From a virus, in IMG/VR virus record IMGVR_UViG_3300003690_000034, positions 1 through 32,954 of that record: a DNA stretch of 32,954 bases. One strand, given 5' to 3'. The first letter of the stretch is position 1; every line of letters starts with the position of its first letter. Position numbers and translations under genes: made by a program. Below the pieces are notes generated by a model. The model searched no databases, was not told where the DNA came from, and worked only from the letters and a program-made list of their open reading frames with translations. Positions 24,980 to 32,829 of the stretch are shown piece after piece.

Positions 24980-26269
24980 ATGCCAGATATAATAGCACAA
25001 GGAAATAATAAGCTAGAAAGCCAAGATTTATTTTTTTGGAGACAATATTATGATGCTTTTGCTATGCCAATGGCAACTAATAAACCCATACCTATAGATT
25101 TTAGAAATGAAAGACCACTATATGGAAGAGTAAATGCAAAAAACAATATTATATATACAATTAATAAAGAAGATTATTTTAGAACACTCCCAGCTAAATC
25201 TGGTGGTCATATAAAAATTATAAATTTTGTTGCAGATGCATTCGAAGATTTACAGCATGAAATAAATTTAAAAGTTGCTAGAGGGCACATGTCACGTAGA
25301 GGTGTTTTTACTGATATTGGAGCAGAATTTGGATATTTAAATGTACAAACCTATTATAATGATCATCTTGATACCTTGTACATCCGTTTTTTATCTCAAT
25401 ACTTAGAAGCTGAATGGGCATTAGCTAAGCGCATTACATCATTCGAGACTTTTATGTGGGTATTTTTGAAATTTATACATCGCGACGCCTCTAGATTTCC
25501 TTTTACTAGAACTGCTTTTTTATCTAGCACTGGCATGCCACCAACAATTAGTGGATTATGTATTGAAACACATGATGTTGATTTTTCTAAAGATCTTACT
25601 AAACATTTAAGGTTTATTAAAGATAGTAATTTTGAAGCTTATAGAGCTTTAGCGCGCAAATTTGGTTTTATGCTAGATCGGCATGCTCCTTGGCGATTGG
25701 TTGCTGATGTAACTTCTCCTTACATGAATAAAAAAATGTTTAAATATGGTTTATCTGGAGCTAATATATTTAATAAATATTTTACATCTTCGTATGTTTT
25801 CGACATTGACGTTATGAGAGTTGTACTGTATAATTGGTATAATCAGTATGTTACAACATATCCCAAGTTTAAAAAAATGAAAACTGCACAATGCAAGTCG
25901 GCAATTTTTAACAATTTGGCAACAAAACATCGCGTTGTTGCCAAATATACGCCTAGAGAAAAATTTATTTCTTCGGAAGAATATGATAATAATTTTGGAC
26001 CACGTTATTGGTTACGACAATATTTATATATTCGCCTTCGTGAAGTAAGTGCCCCAGTTGATGACTATGAATTTAATAAAATAATGAGAAAAGTCCTTAC
26101 ACTATATCGTGTCAAAAATTATCACAATGCATTAAAATATATTAATGCTAAAGTTAAAAGTTTCCAACCAAGTGCTATAATGCAGGAAGATCTTGGAGTT
26201 TATGCGGGAGTAAGCATGCCGCCGAAGTGGAAGAAGAAACTATTGAAGAAGAAAAAGATGGGGTACTAA
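24980..26269 (+). CDS. Conserved-looking protein of unknown role
   Basis: 429 aa. ATG 24980 lies 12 bases after GAAGGA; another ATG at 24973 opens only an 11-codon frame. Aromatic- and Arg-rich, globular throughout: FFWRQYYDAFAMPMATNKPI (about 18-37), the central FMLDRHAPWRLVADVTSPYM (about 233-252), and a C-terminal YWLRQYLYIRLREV. No signal peptide, membrane segment or catalytic motif seen. The central HAPWRLVADVTSPYM segment looks like a constrained core. I have a weak memory of similar proteins among virion-associated unknowns of marine T4-like phages. Last gene of the morphogenesis block; codon use is AT-rich. Confidence 0.6.
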   Translation: MPDIIAQGNNKLESQDLFFWRQYYDAFAMPMATNKPIPIDFRNERPLYGRVNAKNNIIYTINKEDYFRTLPAKSGGHIKIINFVADAFEDLQHEINLKVARGHMSRRGVFTDIGAEFGYLNVQTYYNDHLDTLYIRFLSQYLEAEWALAKRITSFETFMWVFLKFIHRDASRFPFTRTAFLSSTGMPPTISGLCIETHDVDFSKDLTKHLRFIKDSNFEAYRALARKFGFMLDRHAPWRLVADVTSPYMNKKMFKYGLSGANIFNKYFTSSYVFDIDVMRVVLYNWYNQYVTTYPKFKKMKTAQCKSAIFNNLATKHRVVAKYTPREKFISSEEYDNNFGPRYWLRQYLYIRLREVSAPVDDYEFNKIMRKVLTLYRVKNYHNALKYINAKVKSFQPSAIMQEDLGVYAGVSMPPKWKKKLLKKKKMGY

Positions 26270-26278
26270 GGATAAAAT

Positions 26279-27463
26279 TTGTTTTTTCAAACATTCGATG
26301 ATAAAGAAAAATGCATTTGTGTATACACGGAAAATAATTTATTCTTTGATAAGTTTCCAAAAAACTTAACTACAACTTGGTCGTATTCAGAATTCTTAAA
26401 AGATAAAGACGTTGAATACGCTAAATTATATTGTAATAATAAAACTTTAAATGAAGTTTGTCCAGATCACTTAAGAGAGCCTTGGGAAAGAGTCAATAAA
26501 AAAATAGAAGCTTTTTATCGCTCAGCTGCAGAAGTTAAATTAGATTTAAACGAACATTGTTTTTTTAATTTAGTTCCTCGAAAATTTTTGAAAGATTATG
26601 GCGAGATTAAAAATAGAATATCTCAACATGTAATCAACAACTATAAAAGGCCCGAAAATTATGATTTTCTGCTTTCCCTCACAAAGGTTTTAACAGAGAT
26701 CAAAAATAGAAAATTAAATATTGACACGTCAGAAATAAATAATCAGCTTTTTAAATTTAAAACAAGAAAATTTATACAACGAGTTAATTCGAAACCTCAC
26801 TATATTACGTATGATGCCTTTGGTACGAAAACTGGTCGACTATCAACTAAAAATTCTTTTCCTATTTTAACAATGGATAAAGACCATAGAAAAATACTCA
26901 AGCCTAATAATGATTGGTTTATAGAGTTTGATTATAACGCTGCAGAACTACGTGTACTGCTTGGGCTTTTGGGTAAAGAACAACCACAAGAAGATATTCA
27001 CGAATGGAATCTTAAAAACGTTTATAAAAACATAGGCATAAGAGACCAGATCAAAAAAAGGATATTTGCATGGCTTTATAATCCAAACTCAAAAGACCAT
27101 CTTTCGAACAAGGCTTATGATAGAAAAGCGGTGGTAGAAAAATATTACAACGGGACACAGGTAACTACTTTTTTTAACAGAGTTATTCCTGCTGATGAAC
27201 ATCACGCTTTAAATTATATAATTCAGTCAACTGCAGCAGATCTCTTTTTAAGACAAATGATTAAAGTTTGGAAGCTGCTAAAAAATAAAAAGTCTTATAT
27301 TGCATTTTGTTTACATGATTCACTAATAATTGATTTTTCAGAACAAGACATGAAAGTTTTAGTGAACTTGAAAAAAGAGTTTGCCAACACTGAGCTTGGA
27401 AATTTTCTTGTGAACGTAAGTGCTGGTGAAAACTTTGGAAATATGAAAAAATTAAATATTTAG
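26279..27463 (+). CDS. polA: Very short family A DNA polymerase
   Basis: 394 aa, TTG start at 26279 with AAGGA 6 bases upstream; I see no better ATG. Family A polymerase motifs are in order: TGRLS (185-189), motif A FIEFDYNAAELRV (214-226, catalytic D218, steric-gate E223), motif B/O helix R255-K259-F263-Y267, NYIIQSTAAD (312-321), and motif C CLHDSLII (344-351, catalytic D347). The usual HDE is HDS, so the second acidic residue is lost. There is no 3'-5' exonuclease domain: only about 180 residues precede TGRLS, against more than 350 in T7 gp5 and Pol I. Phe at the O-helix position equals the E. coli F762 type. T4-like phages normally use a family B polymerase. It may be a replicative enzyme relying on a separate exonuclease, or a repair enzyme. 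Confidence 0.88.
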   Translation: MFFQTFDDKEKCICVYTENNLFFDKFPKNLTTTWSYSEFLKDKDVEYAKLYCNNKTLNEVCPDHLREPWERVNKKIEAFYRSAAEVKLDLNEHCFFNLVPRKFLKDYGEIKNRISQHVINNYKRPENYDFLLSLTKVLTEIKNRKLNIDTSEINNQLFKFKTRKFIQRVNSKPHYITYDAFGTKTGRLSTKNSFPILTMDKDHRKILKPNNDWFIEFDYNAAELRVLLGLLGKEQPQEDIHEWNLKNVYKNIGIRDQIKKRIFAWLYNPNSKDHLSNKAYDRKAVVEKYYNGTQVTTFFNRVIPADEHHALNYIIQSTAADLFLRQMIKVWKLLKNKKSYIAFCLHDSLIIDFSEQDMKVLVNLKKEFANTELGNFLVNVSAGENFGNMKKLNI

Positions 27464-27471
27464 CATAAAAT

Positions 27472-27491
27472 AACTATTTACACTATAATAG
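27472..27491 (+). promoter_or_regulatory. AACTATTTACACTATAATAG element before FtsZ-like gene
   Basis: In the 36-base gap after polA. It matches 15959-15973 with a 3-base insertion (CAC) and is followed at once by GAGG, the ribosome site of the FtsZ-like gene. Confidence 0.4.
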
Positions 27492-27499
27492 AGGTATAA

Positions 27500-28348
27500 A
27501 TGCAGACAATTATAGGCCTAGGAAAAGCTGGCTGCAATATAGCAGATAAATTTAAACAATACCCACAATATAAAATATATAAAATAGATACTGGCTTGGC
27601 AAAACAAGCTAGATCATACGCATTGGAGCACCAGGACAACCCAGAGCAGTATGAGATAAACTATCCGCGTATTAAACAATTTTTCAAGGGGGTGAAGAAA
27701 GATGAAAATATATTGTTCATTACAAGCTGTGGACATGTTTCTGGTGCTTCATTGCGTATATTAGAGCAGCTTAAGAATAAATGTAAAATTAACATTTTAT
27801 ATGTTAAGCCTGATGAATCTTTTTTATCAGACATAAAAATATTACAGAACAATCTTATGTTTAATGTGCTGCAAGAATATGCTAGATCTGCAGTATTTGA
27901 AAAAATGTATGTCATCGACAATTTAAAAGTGTCGGAATTTTTAGGCGATGTTCCAATAAAAGAATATTATGATTGCTTAAATGAATTAATTACCTCAACA
28001 ATTCACATGATAAATGTATTTAACAATTCTAAATCAGTTGTAAATACTTTTTCTACCGCAGTAGAGCCAGCGAGAATATCCACCTATGGTTTAGTTAGCT
28101 TCGACAATGGAGAAGAAAAATTATTTTTTGATCTTGACATGCCGCGTAAAAAACGATATTATTATGCTATTCCAGAAAGTATTTTGGAATCTGATGGAAA
28201 ATTAATGAAAAAGGTTTCACAACAATTAAAAGAAAACAAAGAACATGATAAAATGAAGATGGATTATGGGATTTATACCACAAAATATGAACAACCCTAT
28301 GTTTATTGCGTGGCAGATAGTTCTAAAATTCAGAAAAAAAATACTTGA
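27500..28348 (+). CDS. Divergent FtsZ/tubulin-like protein
   Basis: 282 aa, AGAGG before ATG. Matches the tubulin/FtsZ GTPase fold in segment order: T1-like loop IIGLGKAGCNIADKF (4-18), KIDTG (28-32) at the T2 position, ILFITSCGHVSGASLRILEQ (71-90) where FtsZ has the GGGTGTG T4 loop, then INILYVKPDESF (98-109), helix and strand VFEKMYVIDNLKVS (132-145), a long helix 153-174, and VVNTFSTAVEPARISTYGLV (180-199) where the T7 loop should lie. The T4 glycines are mostly gone, and T7 lacks the catalytic Asp pair (NxDxxD), so it is probably a poor or dead GTPase. Phage tubulins (PhuZ, TubZ) position genomes, but this one resembles neither closely. Flanked by polA and gp32, it may be tied to replication. 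Confidence 0.7.
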   Translation: MQTIIGLGKAGCNIADKFKQYPQYKIYKIDTGLAKQARSYALEHQDNPEQYEINYPRIKQFFKGVKKDENILFITSCGHVSGASLRILEQLKNKCKINILYVKPDESFLSDIKILQNNLMFNVLQEYARSAVFEKMYVIDNLKVSEFLGDVPIKEYYDCLNELITSTIHMINVFNNSKSVVNTFSTAVEPARISTYGLVSFDNGEEKLFFDLDMPRKKRYYYAIPESILESDGKLMKKVSQQLKENKEHDKMKMDYGIYTTKYEQPYVYCVADSSKIQKKNT

Positions 28349-28373
28349 CAATCATAACTGTTTAAGTTATGAT
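28345..28373 (+). promoter_or_regulatory. Sigma70-like promoter for gp32
   Basis: TTGACA (28345-28350), 17-base spacer, TATGAT (28368-28373). The -35 overlaps the stop codon of the FtsZ-like gene (TGA 28346-28348). About 55 bases of leader follow. Fits host-polymerase transcription early or mid infection. Confidence 0.8.
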
Positions 28374-28383
28374 GTAAATTAGC

Positions 28384-28411
28384 AGTGTGAGAGAGTTATC
28401 ACATTGACTTT
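28384..28411 (+). promoter_or_regulatory. Leader hairpin of gp32 mRNA, possible pseudoknot
   Basis: Stem AGTGTGA / TCACATT (28384-28390 and 28399-28405, one G-U) with loop GAGAGTTA. The bases right after the stem, GACTTT, can pair with loop AGAGTT (two G-U pairs), though joining loops would be tight. An A-rich unstructured stretch with AAGGA then leads to ATG 28433. T4 gene 32 represses its own translation through a leader pseudoknot and a following unstructured stretch, so analogous control is plausible. Confidence 0.4.
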
Positions 28412-28432
28412 AAAAAAAAAGGAAAAAATACT

Positions 28433-29188
28433 ATGACAATTGATATGAAAGCAATGAGAGATCGGATGAAGACTCTCAAAAGCAAAAATGGCAATTCAGC
28501 TAATTTTTGGCGTCCCCAAGATGGAGAACAAACAATTCGCATTGTTCCAACTTCTGATGGCGATCCATTCAAAGACTATTGGTTTCACTACAACGTTGGA
28601 GACAATCCAGGTTTTCTAAGCCTAAAGCGAAACTTTGGCGAAGATTGTCCTCTAGACACTTTTGTTCGTGAGCTTTGGCAAGAAGGAACAGAAGAGAGTA
28701 AGCGTATGGCTAAAAAGCTTTCTGCGCGACAACGATTTTTTGCACCGGTTATTGTACGCGGTGAAGAAGATCAAGGAGTGCGCATTTGGGGCTTTGGAAA
28801 GCAGGTTTATGAAACCCTTCTAAACCTTGTCCTTAATCCTGAATATGGCGACATTACAGATCCAGATGCTGGAACTGATTTGCTCCTAACATATGGAAAA
28901 CCAGTAGGTGCTAGCTTTCCACAAACAAAGCTCACCCCCCGTCGCAAAAGCTCCCCGCTTTGTCAAGACGGCCCAGAGCGTTGTAAGGAGTTGCTAGAGG
29001 GCATACCCGACTTCGATCAACTCTTCGAAGGTAGTCGTAAAACTTACGATGAAGTTCGTGTAATGCTCGATGATTTCCTCCTTGGCGCAACTGAAGCGGA
29101 AGAAGGTTCAACTAAAGCCACCGATCCCGACAATAAAGAACCAAACAGTTCTGTTGATCGGGCCTTTGCAGACCTTCTAGGCGGTTAA
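28433..29188 (+). CDS. 32: Single-stranded DNA-binding protein, gp32-like
   Basis: 251 aa (T4 gp32 is 301). N-terminal basic segment (MKAMRDRMKTLKSKNG) for cooperative binding, OB-fold core from FWRPQDGEQTIRIVPTSDGD (25-44) to WGFGKQVYETLLNLVLNPEY (119-138), and acidic linker ending AFADLLGG, the typical gp32 tail that docks partner proteins. The T4 His-Cys3 zinc site is not intact: FHYNVG (51-56) and DCPLD (71-75) supply one His and one Cys, other Cys (177, 184) are far away, so it may not bind zinc. It coats single strands for replication and recombination with the adjacent UvsX. Own promoter and leader hairpin; terminator follows. Confidence 0.88.
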   Translation: MTIDMKAMRDRMKTLKSKNGNSANFWRPQDGEQTIRIVPTSDGDPFKDYWFHYNVGDNPGFLSLKRNFGEDCPLDTFVRELWQEGTEESKRMAKKLSARQRFFAPVIVRGEEDQGVRIWGFGKQVYETLLNLVLNPEYGDITDPDAGTDLLLTYGKPVGASFPQTKLTPRRKSSPLCQDGPERCKELLEGIPDFDQLFEGSRKTYDEVRVMLDDFLLGATEAEEGSTKATDPDNKEPNSSVDRAFADLLGG

Positions 29189-29202
29189 AGTTGATTGTAT
29201 TT

Positions 29203-29235
29203 AAGGAGAGGGAGATCCCCTCTCCTTAAACTTTT
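29203..29235 (+). terminator. Hairpin terminator between gp32 and uvsX
   Basis: Perfect 10-bp stem AAGGAGAGGG / CCCTCTCCTT with loop AGATC, followed by AAACTTTT. The T tract is weak, so termination may be partial, allowing readthrough into uvsX. The 5' arm contains a Shine-Dalgarno-like AAGGAG with no start codon at usable distance. Confidence 0.75.
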
Positions 29236-29279: not shown

Positions 29280-30389
29280 ATGGCACGGACACATACAACC
29301 AAAACAGGAAAACTATCCATTGCAGACATGCGCAGCTTAATTAACAAAAAAGCAGGCATGAACGTTGCGCACAATTTAAACGAAGATAGCCCTACGATTG
29401 TAAAAGATTGGATCCCAACCGGCTCTCGCTGGCTTGATAGTATCATCTTCAGAGGAAAATTGGCTGGGATTCCCGTAGGTAAAATTATAGAAATTGCTGG
29501 TTTAGAATCTACTGGCAAATCTTATATGGCGGCACAAGTTGCCGCAAACGCTCAAAAGAAAGGAATTGATGTAATCTACTTTGATTCTGAATCAGCGATT
29601 GATCCATCTTTTTTGGAGAAAGCTGGTTGCAACGTAGATAATATTCTTTATGTGCAAGCTGCTTCTGTTGAGTTTGTATTAGAAACAATTGAAGAGCTAC
29701 TTGGGTCAAATGAAAATAGAATGTTATTTATTTGGGATTCTTTAGCCTTAACGCCTGCAGTCTCTGATATTGAAGGAGACTTTAACCCTCTTTCTTCAAT
29801 GGCAGTAAAAGCAAGAATTCTTGCAAAAGGGATGTCAAAACTAACAGTTCCAATTGCAAATAGTCAATCAACACTTTTGGTTTTAAACCAATTGAAAACA
29901 AATATCACTAGGAGCCCGTCAGAGGCTCTTACAACGCCTTTTATGACTCCTGGGGGTAAAGCTATGATTTACGCTTATTCGTTGCGCATATGGCTCACAG
30001 GGAGAAAAGCGAAGGCTTCTTTTGTTCTAGATGACAAAGGATTCAGAATTGGCTCTGAAGTCAAGGTAAAACTTGAAAAAAGCCGCTTTGGAACGCAAGG
30101 GCGACAATGTAATTTTAAGATTTTATGGGGAGACGAAATTGGCGTACAAGACGAAGAAAGTTGGCTGGATGCGATCAAAGGTTCGCAACATCTATCAAAC
30201 AGTGGCGCATGGTTTACTCTTGACTATGGCGATGGTACGTCCGACAAGTTCCAAAGTTCGGGTTGGAAAAAGAAACTTGAAGAACCTAAATTTAAACAAA
30301 GAGTTTTAGACGTTATGGACGAAGAAATTATCATGAAATTTGATAAGAGAATCGGTGATGCCGAAGATTTTTATGAAGAAGAAAATTAA
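29280..30389 (+). CDS. uvsX: RecA-family recombinase, UvsX-like
   Basis: 369 aa (T4 UvsX is 391), TAGGAG before ATG. Walker A GLESTGKS (74-81), VIYFDSESAI (98-107) holding the catalytic Glu region, Walker B MLFIWDSLA (148-156), the LVLNQLKTNI strand and loop leading to TPGGKAMIYAYSLRIWL (DNA-binding L2 region), and the C-terminal KVKLEKSRFG. UvsX makes the presynaptic filament on single strands, with gp32 and UvsY, for strand exchange and recombination-dependent replication. The order gp32-uvsX suggests shared expression through the leaky terminator. The acidic tail ends DFYEEEN. Confidence 0.92.
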   Translation: MARTHTTKTGKLSIADMRSLINKKAGMNVAHNLNEDSPTIVKDWIPTGSRWLDSIIFRGKLAGIPVGKIIEIAGLESTGKSYMAAQVAANAQKKGIDVIYFDSESAIDPSFLEKAGCNVDNILYVQAASVEFVLETIEELLGSNENRMLFIWDSLALTPAVSDIEGDFNPLSSMAVKARILAKGMSKLTVPIANSQSTLLVLNQLKTNITRSPSEALTTPFMTPGGKAMIYAYSLRIWLTGRKAKASFVLDDKGFRIGSEVKVKLEKSRFGTQGRQCNFKILWGDEIGVQDEESWLDAIKGSQHLSNSGAWFTLDYGDGTSDKFQSSGWKKKLEEPKFKQRVLDVMDEEIIMKFDKRIGDAEDFYEEEN

Positions 30390-31215: not shown

Positions 31216-32829
31216 ATGAAAAATAATATAGCTAAAAAAGAAACTATTAGTGTTCTTAAAAAGATTTTGATTCCGGGAGCCGCCAAAGTGGTGCAAGCTT
31301 GGAGATCGGTAGGGTATAATAATTACGATGCAATCAAAGACATTTTAGACAACTCAATCGACGCTAGCGCAACAGAAGTGCGAGTGACAATAGTTACTAA
31401 AAATCACCCTACAGAACTTAACACCACGGGTAAGCCAAAAAAGAGAATTGAGGCGATAATAATCGCTGATAATGGCCATGGCATGAACATGGATGAACTT
31501 ACTGAAGCGCTTAGATATGGCTCTAAAACTACCCACGATTGCGCAATTGATTTAGGCAAGTTTGGCATGGGATTAAATTCTGCCGGTACATCAATGGGCC
31601 GACGTGTGAGTGTTATAACTCGCAAGAAAGGTGGTTCTCTTATTACTGGCACACTTGATTTGGATGTAATTGTGGCAAACGATTCATTTGATTATGAGTT
31701 TAAGTATGTTAACGATCCAAAGCTTGTATCTTATTTTGATCAACAGGTTACTTCACCAAGCGGCACAGTTGTGGTAATTGATAAACTTGATCTACTACAG
31801 AATAAAGATCCGAATTCTTTTAAAGCGGCATTACGAGGAGAAAAACATCTAGGCAGAACATTTAGACACCTCCTGGCCGATCCAGAAAGATTAAAAATGT
31901 ATGTCAACGAGAAACTTGTTAAACCCTATGATCCCCTATGTTGGAATTCCAAGGGAACAATTAGGTTTACTGATAGTTGGGTAAGCGTCAAGGGGTTTGA
32001 AACCTTGGAATATAGAATAGCATGCATTAGAGATACTGAGGATTATAAAGGATCGACAGTTGCCAATCAGGGACTTAGCTGGTTGAGAAACGAGAGGGAG
32101 ATTAGTTATAATCGCACCGAACCTTTTTGGAATAAGTTTCCAGATTATCGAGGGTTTCTTGTAGAAATTAGGTTTGGTGGTCATGAACTTGATGAACTAG
32201 TTGGCGTTAATGTACAAAAAAAGTTAGCTGAAACCTTAGATCAGGGTCTAATTGACAAACTCAAAGAAGAAATAATGCCATATCACAAAAAGAATTATAA
32301 TGAGCTGCAGTCCGCAGCAAAAAAGAAGAAGAAAAACAATAACCAAGAAGCTCTAGAAGAGGAGTTAAAAAAGTATTGTAAAAAAGTTAAAAATATTTCT
32401 AAATCTTTATCTTTGCCGCCAATACCTGTGCTTACAGAATCTAACGACGGCCATGGCCGAGACAAACAACCTCGCAAAAAAAGAGGAAACAACGTGGTTG
32501 ATCTTCTTAAGAACGTTAGGTCTTCACATCTTGGTCGTGAATTTGAGTTCGAAATGAAAAGTTGGACCGCCCAAGGTCCAATGTTTGTCCCCAGATTGGG
32601 AGATAAAAACATTATCATCGAGATGAATGAGGACCATCCATCTGTATCACAGGGCTTTTTTGAGCCAGACGTATCTGGCCAAGGGCTATTGTTTACAAAC
32701 CTCATCATGGCCATGGCACTTTCAGAACTTCAGCTTCCAGAGGATACTGCCACTAAGGATGCGCATGAGAAATATAGAGATCTCTTTAGTAGAAACTGCA
32801 GGGCTCTCACAGAAAAAATTACCAATTAA
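31216..32829 (+). CDS. MORC-like GHKL (Bergerat-fold) ATPase
   Basis: 537 aa. N-box DAIKDILDNSIDASATEVRV (38-57), G1 DNGHGM (85-90), G2 GKFGMGLNSAGTSMG (114-128), then GRRVSVITRKKGG: the order of GHKL ATPases (gyrase B, Hsp90, MutL, MORC). The catalytic Glu position four before Asn46 is Asp42. The next part (about 185-300) resembles the S5-type transducer of MORC proteins (GTVVVIDKLDLLQNK, RHLLADPERLKMYVNEKLV). A Lys-rich run (about 368-375) precedes a coiled-coil linker and a C-terminal domain (about 430-537). ATP-driven dimerisation clamping DNA is the expected mode; its task here is unknown. It lacks gyrase or MutL C-terminal signatures I can recognise. Confidence 0.82.
   Translation: MKNNIAKKETISVLKKILIPGAAKVVQAWRSVGYNNYDAIKDILDNSIDASATEVRVTIVTKNHPTELNTTGKPKKRIEAIIIADNGHGMNMDELTEALRYGSKTTHDCAIDLGKFGMGLNSAGTSMGRRVSVITRKKGGSLITGTLDLDVIVANDSFDYEFKYVNDPKLVSYFDQQVTSPSGTVVVIDKLDLLQNKDPNSFKAALRGEKHLGRTFRHLLADPERLKMYVNEKLVKPYDPLCWNSKGTIRFTDSWVSVKGFETLEYRIACIRDTEDYKGSTVANQGLSWLRNEREISYNRTEPFWNKFPDYRGFLVEIRFGGHELDELVGVNVQKKLAETLDQGLIDKLKEEIMPYHKKNYNELQSAAKKKKKNNNQEALEEELKKYCKKVKNISKSLSLPPIPVLTESNDGHGRDKQPRKKRGNNVVDLLKNVRSSHLGREFEFEMKSWTAQGPMFVPRLGDKNIIIEMNEDHPSVSQGFFEPDVSGQGLLFTNLIMAMALSELQLPEDTATKDAHEKYRDLFSRNCRALTEKITN

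Follow-up and report, generated by a model that had tools for sequence, protein, structure and literature searches.

A predicted tubulin-fold protein encoded between the DNA polymerase and gp32 genes of uncultured T4-like phages

A phage protein of 282 residues, here called TUB, is by its predicted fold a member of the tubulin superfamily. Its gene lies between the genes for a family A DNA polymerase (polA) and a gp32-like single-strand DNA-binding protein, and this polA-TUB-gp32 synteny is strongly supported. To our knowledge, PhuZ and TubZ, the phage tubulins that have been studied, form filaments driven by GTP. The TUB family is large, core and slowly evolving; it combines a predicted tubulin fold having altered catalytic parts with a fixed place between the polymerase and single-strand-binding-protein genes. 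Our leading reading, put forward tentatively and with rather less than even confidence, is that TUB binds a nucleotide with little or no hydrolysis of it, and that it serves the replisome as an accessory or scaffold produced alongside the polymerase. If TUB is a part of the replisome, the tubulin fold serves beyond cytomotive filaments, in virus DNA replication. The family would also be a natural test of how the tubulin fold behaves without T7-driven hydrolysis.

Gene features and distribution

The DNA analyzed, called the window throughout, is the whole stretch of positions 1 to 32,954 (32,954 nucleotides) of IMG/VR virus record IMGVR_UViG_3300003690_000034. The window contains gp23, tail sheath and T4 baseplate genes, and the phage is therefore considered T4-like. 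Among gp23 proteins, the closest to the one in the window belong to Microcystis phage Mel-JY01 (37% identity) and Rhodothermus phage RM378 (34%). The phages that carry TUB are T4-like, with contigs of up to 193 kb. A cyanobacterial host was considered; it found no support from psbA/psbD-type genes in five large contigs, which does not by itself fix the host. The replication genes of the window are as follows.

26279-27463, + strand: polA, family A DNA polymerase, 394 aa, upstream of TUB (PF00476, E 1.9e-16; synteny)
27500-28348, + strand: TUB, tubulin-fold protein gene, 282 aa, ATG start (AlphaFold2, Foldseek and VIA)
28345-28373, + strand: sigma-70-like promoter TTGACA-17-TATGAT for gp32, beginning within the final codons of TUB (by pattern only, with 11 of 12 matches)
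28433-29188, + strand: gp32-like single-strand DNA-binding protein, downstream of TUB (PF08804, E 4.2e-15; phrog_1192, E 4e-27)
29280-30389, + strand: UvsX/RecA-like recombinase (phrog_97, E 1.2e-53; PF00154, E 1.1e-36)

Relatives of TUB were sought in IMG/VR viral contigs, where a single-sequence search found 20 and a profile search 334, 80 of which were retained. A gp32-based scan, independent of TUB, added 78 loci, including more divergent TUB members. The alignment used below contains 122 homologues, the lowest identity to the window protein being 31%, and residue conservation was weighted. Family members are 264-300 aa long. Purifying selection is strong (median dN/dS 0.10 in 65 close pairs). 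The gene is single-copy in each of six large contigs, and no locus carries a second paralogue, so that there is no alpha/beta-like pair. At one locus (L213:355-1185) TUB is read as two overlapping ORFs in different frames, from either a frameshift or a sequencing error.

Three different members used as query had no match in 50,697 phage records. No named PHROG matches TUB; phrog_29734 (E 2.7e-4, TUB residues 181-256) was set aside, as it has no function and matches just 2 of 17 members. None of the isolates in the phage collection searched carries the gene. A scan of GTDB genome contigs with one pattern gave no relative, nor was one found in RM378, Mel-JY01, the Flavobacterium immuto phages or two huge uncultured phages. 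PDB sequences, searched with the single sequence and with a profile, gave no useful match, and nothing in Rfam matched in the window. Because the family is absent from the PHROG and isolate-phage resources searched, annotation misses it.

Predicted fold

The AlphaFold2 model of the window protein has a pLDDT of 90.7 and a pTM of 0.90. In a Foldseek search against the PDB its top matches were all FtsZ or TubZ (E about 1e-12). VIA aligned the model with the archaeal tubulin-superfamily protein CetZ over 259 residues (Z 24.7, 2.9 Å), with TubZ over 277 residues (Z 23.9), with Aquifex FtsZ (Z 23.0) and with tubulin (Z 21.9). A second member, L242, is 39% identical, has altered pocket residues and was modelled with a pLDDT of 94.4; CetZ was again the top match (VIA Z 23.9 over 255 residues). 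In both models the whole chain aligns and consists of an N-terminal Rossmann-like domain, a long central helix H7 and a second alpha/beta domain, ending in a strand (residues 267-274 and 264-271) and a short tail. The models thus strongly support a complete two-domain tubulin/FtsZ fold; the first-pass annotation had proposed an FtsZ/tubulin-like protein from segment order. The contrary outcome named there, a plain Rossmann protein lacking H7 and a second domain, is not what is predicted: H7 is at residues 153-175, with the second domain after it.

This fold is invisible from sequence alone, and it is the predicted structure that decides it. The segments initially compared with FtsZ (GLGKAGCN, KIDTG, TSCGHVSGAS, KINILYVKPDE, VIDNLKVS and VVNTFST) are all present and in that order. 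A profile of the 122 homologues is collinear with FtsZ over 174 columns, from T1 into H7, with a score of 21.3; column-shuffled controls reached this score in 2 of 300 cases, and the score together with 150 columns in 0 of 300. The profile alignment is therefore suggestive, not significant. A single pair in hhalign gave E 0.03-0.07. Pfam Tubulin (PF00091) matched 3 of 17 members with an E of 0.053 at best, short of the curated cut-off; it had no match in the window or in four large contigs, with phiKZ as a positive control at 2.6e-8. The lack of a significant sequence match to tubulins would fit a chance fold match or a decaying gene. Against such a reading stand the Z values of 22-25 over 255-279 residues in two divergent members and the dN/dS of 0.10; it is extremely improbable, and already refuted unless both models are wrong.

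Among known systems, CetZ (3zid, 4b45, 4b46) is the best structural match of both models, its Z exceeding that of TubZ by less than 1 for the window model. It shares 10-17% identity with TUB, which is shorter and stands in a phage replication operon. TubZ of Bacillus (2xka, 4ei7), which resembles TUB in fold, is encoded on a mobile element; it partitions DNA together with TubR and centromere iterons, and hydrolyzes GTP. In contrast, TUB neighbors polA and gp32 and has no conserved T7 acid; no tubR-like neighbor stands beside it in 99 loci, and no iterons were found around it in window positions 27300-28500. PhuZ and the TubZ of phiKZ, from jumbo phages, are phage-encoded from one gene and have the same fold (matches of this type in a viral structure library had E values of 1e-7 to 1e-5). 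They differ in that Pfam Tubulin detects phiKZ and not the TUB family, and in the C-terminal helix H11 and acidic tail of PhuZ, which neither TUB model has. FtsZ shares the collinear segment order with TUB, whose T1 is tubulin-type and which does not keep the T4 and T7 signatures of FtsZ. Since the defining features of FtsZ, PhuZ and TubZ were tested and are lacking, TUB is placed outside all three families. The nearest viral model, A0A6J5RW92 (E 3.8e-13, TM 0.76), is named 'FtsZ Cell division GTPase' and comes from an uncultured Caudovirales phage; it has 452 aa and 19% identity.

Nucleotide loops and catalytic parts

The elements of the predicted nucleotide site, together with one conserved motif on the opposite side, are located as follows.

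27515-27535, + strand: T1 loop, residues 6-12 GLGKAGC, tubulin-type GxGxxGC (homologue alignment)
27587-27589, + strand: T2 loop Asp30, at the position presumably equivalent to Asp46 of S. aureus FtsZ (alignment)
27725-27745, + strand: T4 loop, residues 76-82 SCGHVSG, in place of GGGTGTG (alignment)
27872-27889, + strand: QEYARS motif, residues 125-130, where H5 ends and turns into S6, on the far side from the nucleotide (DSSP, helix 111-129)
27920-27922, + strand: T6 Asn141, putative guanine contact (paired by hhalign with the Asn of FtsZ PNxxL)
27956-28024, + strand: central helix H7, residues 153-175, including Y157 and N161 (putative guanine contacts) and HMINVF (DSSP)
28025-28075, + strand: T7/H8 region, residues 176-192, without predicted helix or conserved acid (DSSP, both models)

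The T1 loop had at first been taken for degenerate; it is intact. G6, G8 and G11 are conserved in 100% of the 122 homologues, C12 in 95% and the pattern GxGxxG in 100%, in the GxGxAGC style of tubulin and CetZ. Position 30 in T2 is Asp in 89% of all homologues and in 100% of the closer 72. Guanine is contacted by N166, F183 and D187 in FtsZ and by N206, Y224 and N228 in beta-tubulin. Given these sites and the profile alignment, we take N141, position 157 and N161 of TUB to be the corresponding contacts. N141, which follows strand 6, is present in 94% of homologues and N161 in 94%; an aromatic residue or His occupies position 157 in 113 of 122.

The loops for hydrolysis are different. T4 reads SCGxxSG or GGSGxIS across the family, is about three residues shorter than GGGTGTG and does not carry the signature GGGTGTG or GGGTGSG (G78 84%, S81 84%). 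The candidate T7 acid at position 182 is Asp in just 27 of 122 homologues, and helix H8 is not predicted at residues 176-192 in either of the two models. The description of the nucleotide loops as degenerate thus holds for T4 and T7, while T1 is intact and the presumed base contacts (N, aromatic, N) are kept in most members. The TubZ of phiKZ has a catalytic aspartate in T7, and its subunits make contact through T7, the base of H8 and S9 (PMC3678025). With T4 short, H8 not predicted and no conserved acid in T7, hydrolysis at a shared site has probably been lost, and the label of pseudo-GTPase fits the predicted anatomy.

N141 and N161 were lost in two to four lineages; the tree permits two events, with long-branch warnings. 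The predicted nucleotide binding is accordingly not universal. The six sequences that lack both residues still have R129 and S130, which suggests, from the alignment, that nucleotide binding can disappear while the rest of TUB persists. The joint loss looked like covariation and is not taken as proof of it, as the tree permits only two events and some joins are possibly long-branch artefacts.

These lineages bear on the view that TUB is a sensor of nucleotides or an allosteric regulator (acting, for instance, on dGTP/GTP pools or on the synthesis of gp32 or the polymerase), for which the tubulin fold would be a monomeric binding domain. Such a protein would keep the presumed base-recognition positions and lose the parts for hydrolysis, and its coupling to polA would be in keeping. 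The lineages without the presumed base contacts nevertheless retain TUB at the same site, and we regard this view as quite improbable.

Conserved face opposite the nucleotide

Besides T1, the strictest columns (99-100%) are Y24, L85, Q125 (99%), R129 and S130 (both 100%), the last three in QEYARS; next come H169 (93%), M170 and others in lower H7. Where a Rossmann-like sheet is parallel, the nucleotide is on one side, and the turns that follow H1 and H5, like the end of H7, are on the other. It is a fair inference that this far face forms a conserved contact with a partner or in a polymer, its exposure being deduced from topology; some of its strictly conserved residues may be buried and structural.

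A polymer contact would be expected if TUB were a filament-forming phage tubulin, like PhuZ or TubZ, that organizes or positions phage DNA during replication, its longitudinal interface being altered and its hydrolysis slow or absent. The fold that it shares with TubZ and PhuZ-type viral proteins, T1 and the presumed guanine contacts in most members are consistent with a filament as well. The shortened T4, the unconserved T7 acid and the unpredicted H8 argue against one, as does the lack of a tubR-like neighbor, of iterons at the window gene and of a C-terminal H11 tail of the phiKZ TubZ type; the latter protein, besides having H11, has a GTPase site that is competent and forms canonical protofilaments (PMC3678025). 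A filament is on balance rather unlikely.

Gene neighborhood and coupling

Directly upstream of polA stands a 429-aa gene, u429 (window 24980-26269), which is conserved, fast evolving and without a Pfam hit; it is possibly the final structural gene ahead of the replication block. The order u429-polA-TUB-gp32-uvsX is found wherever the contig extends, in nearly all of 99 loci that were found via TUB, and argues that TUB is a core replication gene. The location between polA and gp32 first noted for the window recurs in the loci anchored on gp32: where polA is present, TUB lies between the two in 57 of 57. Only eight gp32-anchored loci are without TUB, and seven of these are contigs that end 3-129 nt upstream of gp32. 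The eighth, L271, is the sole gp32 locus with upstream sequence and no TUB; a 393-aa ORF found there (L271:138-1319) has, by eye, a ParB-like GLGGHHR.

The start of TUB is no more than 25 nt from the polA stop, or overlaps it, in 66 of 108 loci, with -4 the most frequent distance; in 36 of 108 TUB lies more than 250 nt from polA. The candidate gp32 promoter that starts in the end of TUB is consistent with polA and TUB forming one unit and gp32 a separate one. Median identity is 49% for TUB and 50% for polA, compared with 27% for the neighboring u429.

A further possibility is that TUB is a dominant-negative mimic of FtsZ which, by capping or poisoning the FtsZ of the host, keeps infected cells from dividing. 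A capping subunit would resemble the FtsZ fold minus its catalytic parts, and there is precedent in that lambda Kil (PMC3961180), T7 Gp0.4 (PMC4944311) and P1 Icd (PMC11897509), which are unrelated phage proteins, are described as blocking FtsZ. A universal core gene that is coupled to polA and diverges at its rate is unlike typical accessory host-takeover genes, and the sequence similarity to FtsZ is under significance. Poisoning of host FtsZ is possible but less likely, and as a reading we consider it improbable. Of the roles proposed in the first-pass annotation, the one in replication is favored by the polA-TUB-gp32 synteny and the coupling to the polA stop; no positive evidence was obtained for the FtsZ poison.

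Proposed role

In the replisome reading that we favor, an uncultured lineage of T4-like phages would have the minimal TUB protein at the core of its replication apparatus, and coupled reading frames would yield it together with the family A DNA polymerase. A guanine nucleotide would most likely be held through T1, T2, T6 and H7. The usual shared-site hydrolysis would be blocked by the short T4 and by a T7/H8 region without a conserved acid. Nucleotide-bound TUB may then act as an accessory subunit or scaffold, docking on the polymerase, on gp32 or on its own copies via the far face (YPQY, QEYARS, HMINVF). A stronger version is a conjecture that could well be wrong: TUB would be a new class of phage tubulin-fold protein, with neither GTP hydrolysis nor a cytomotive filament, which the replisome of this lineage cannot do without as a subunit and which is produced alongside the DNA polymerase.

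Gene position proves no replisome role. Against this role, the related Microcystis and Flavobacterium phages replicate without TUB and have other small genes at that site. Mel-JY01 and the immuto phages resemble the window phage in gp23, gp32 and polA and have a gp32-recA-exonuclease-helicase block, whereas their polA-gp32 junctions carry other small ORFs; two such ORFs of immuto were considered as kin of TUB and look unrelated by eye. In favor of the role, no T4-type clamp was found in three contigs of 185-193 kb (T4 control, 2.9e-35). Mel-JY01 and immuto, which are without TUB, also lack a T4-type clamp match, so that the missing clamp is not specific.

Other features of the loci

The polA of the window has motifs A, B and C by eye, and a 3'-5' exonuclease domain was not detected in it. 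A strong terminator-like hairpin of 13 pairs lies 3' of gp32 (window 29200-29230), consistent with gp32 as its own transcription unit. A 358-aa ORF of LR756508 between polA and gp32 was tried as a tubulin and rejected; by eye it is an acidic, low-complexity protein. In Mel-JY01 (L195, 3398-4624 and 8793-9833) the 'hypothetical' ORF 50397-51623 is polA-like (tblastn E 5e-10), and the annotated DNA polymerase I resembles a 5'-3' exonuclease by eye. A GHKL-type ATPase gene (HATPase_c_3, window 31216-32829, PF13589 E 9.9e-23) is located downstream of UvsX, and ORFs that look GHKL-like by eye stand between polA and TUB in L242 and between TUB and gp32 in L262. Near tRNA genes downstream of the replication block, one contig carries a cysteine-dioxygenase-like gene (L056:13321-13830; phrog_7851, E 9.2e-21).
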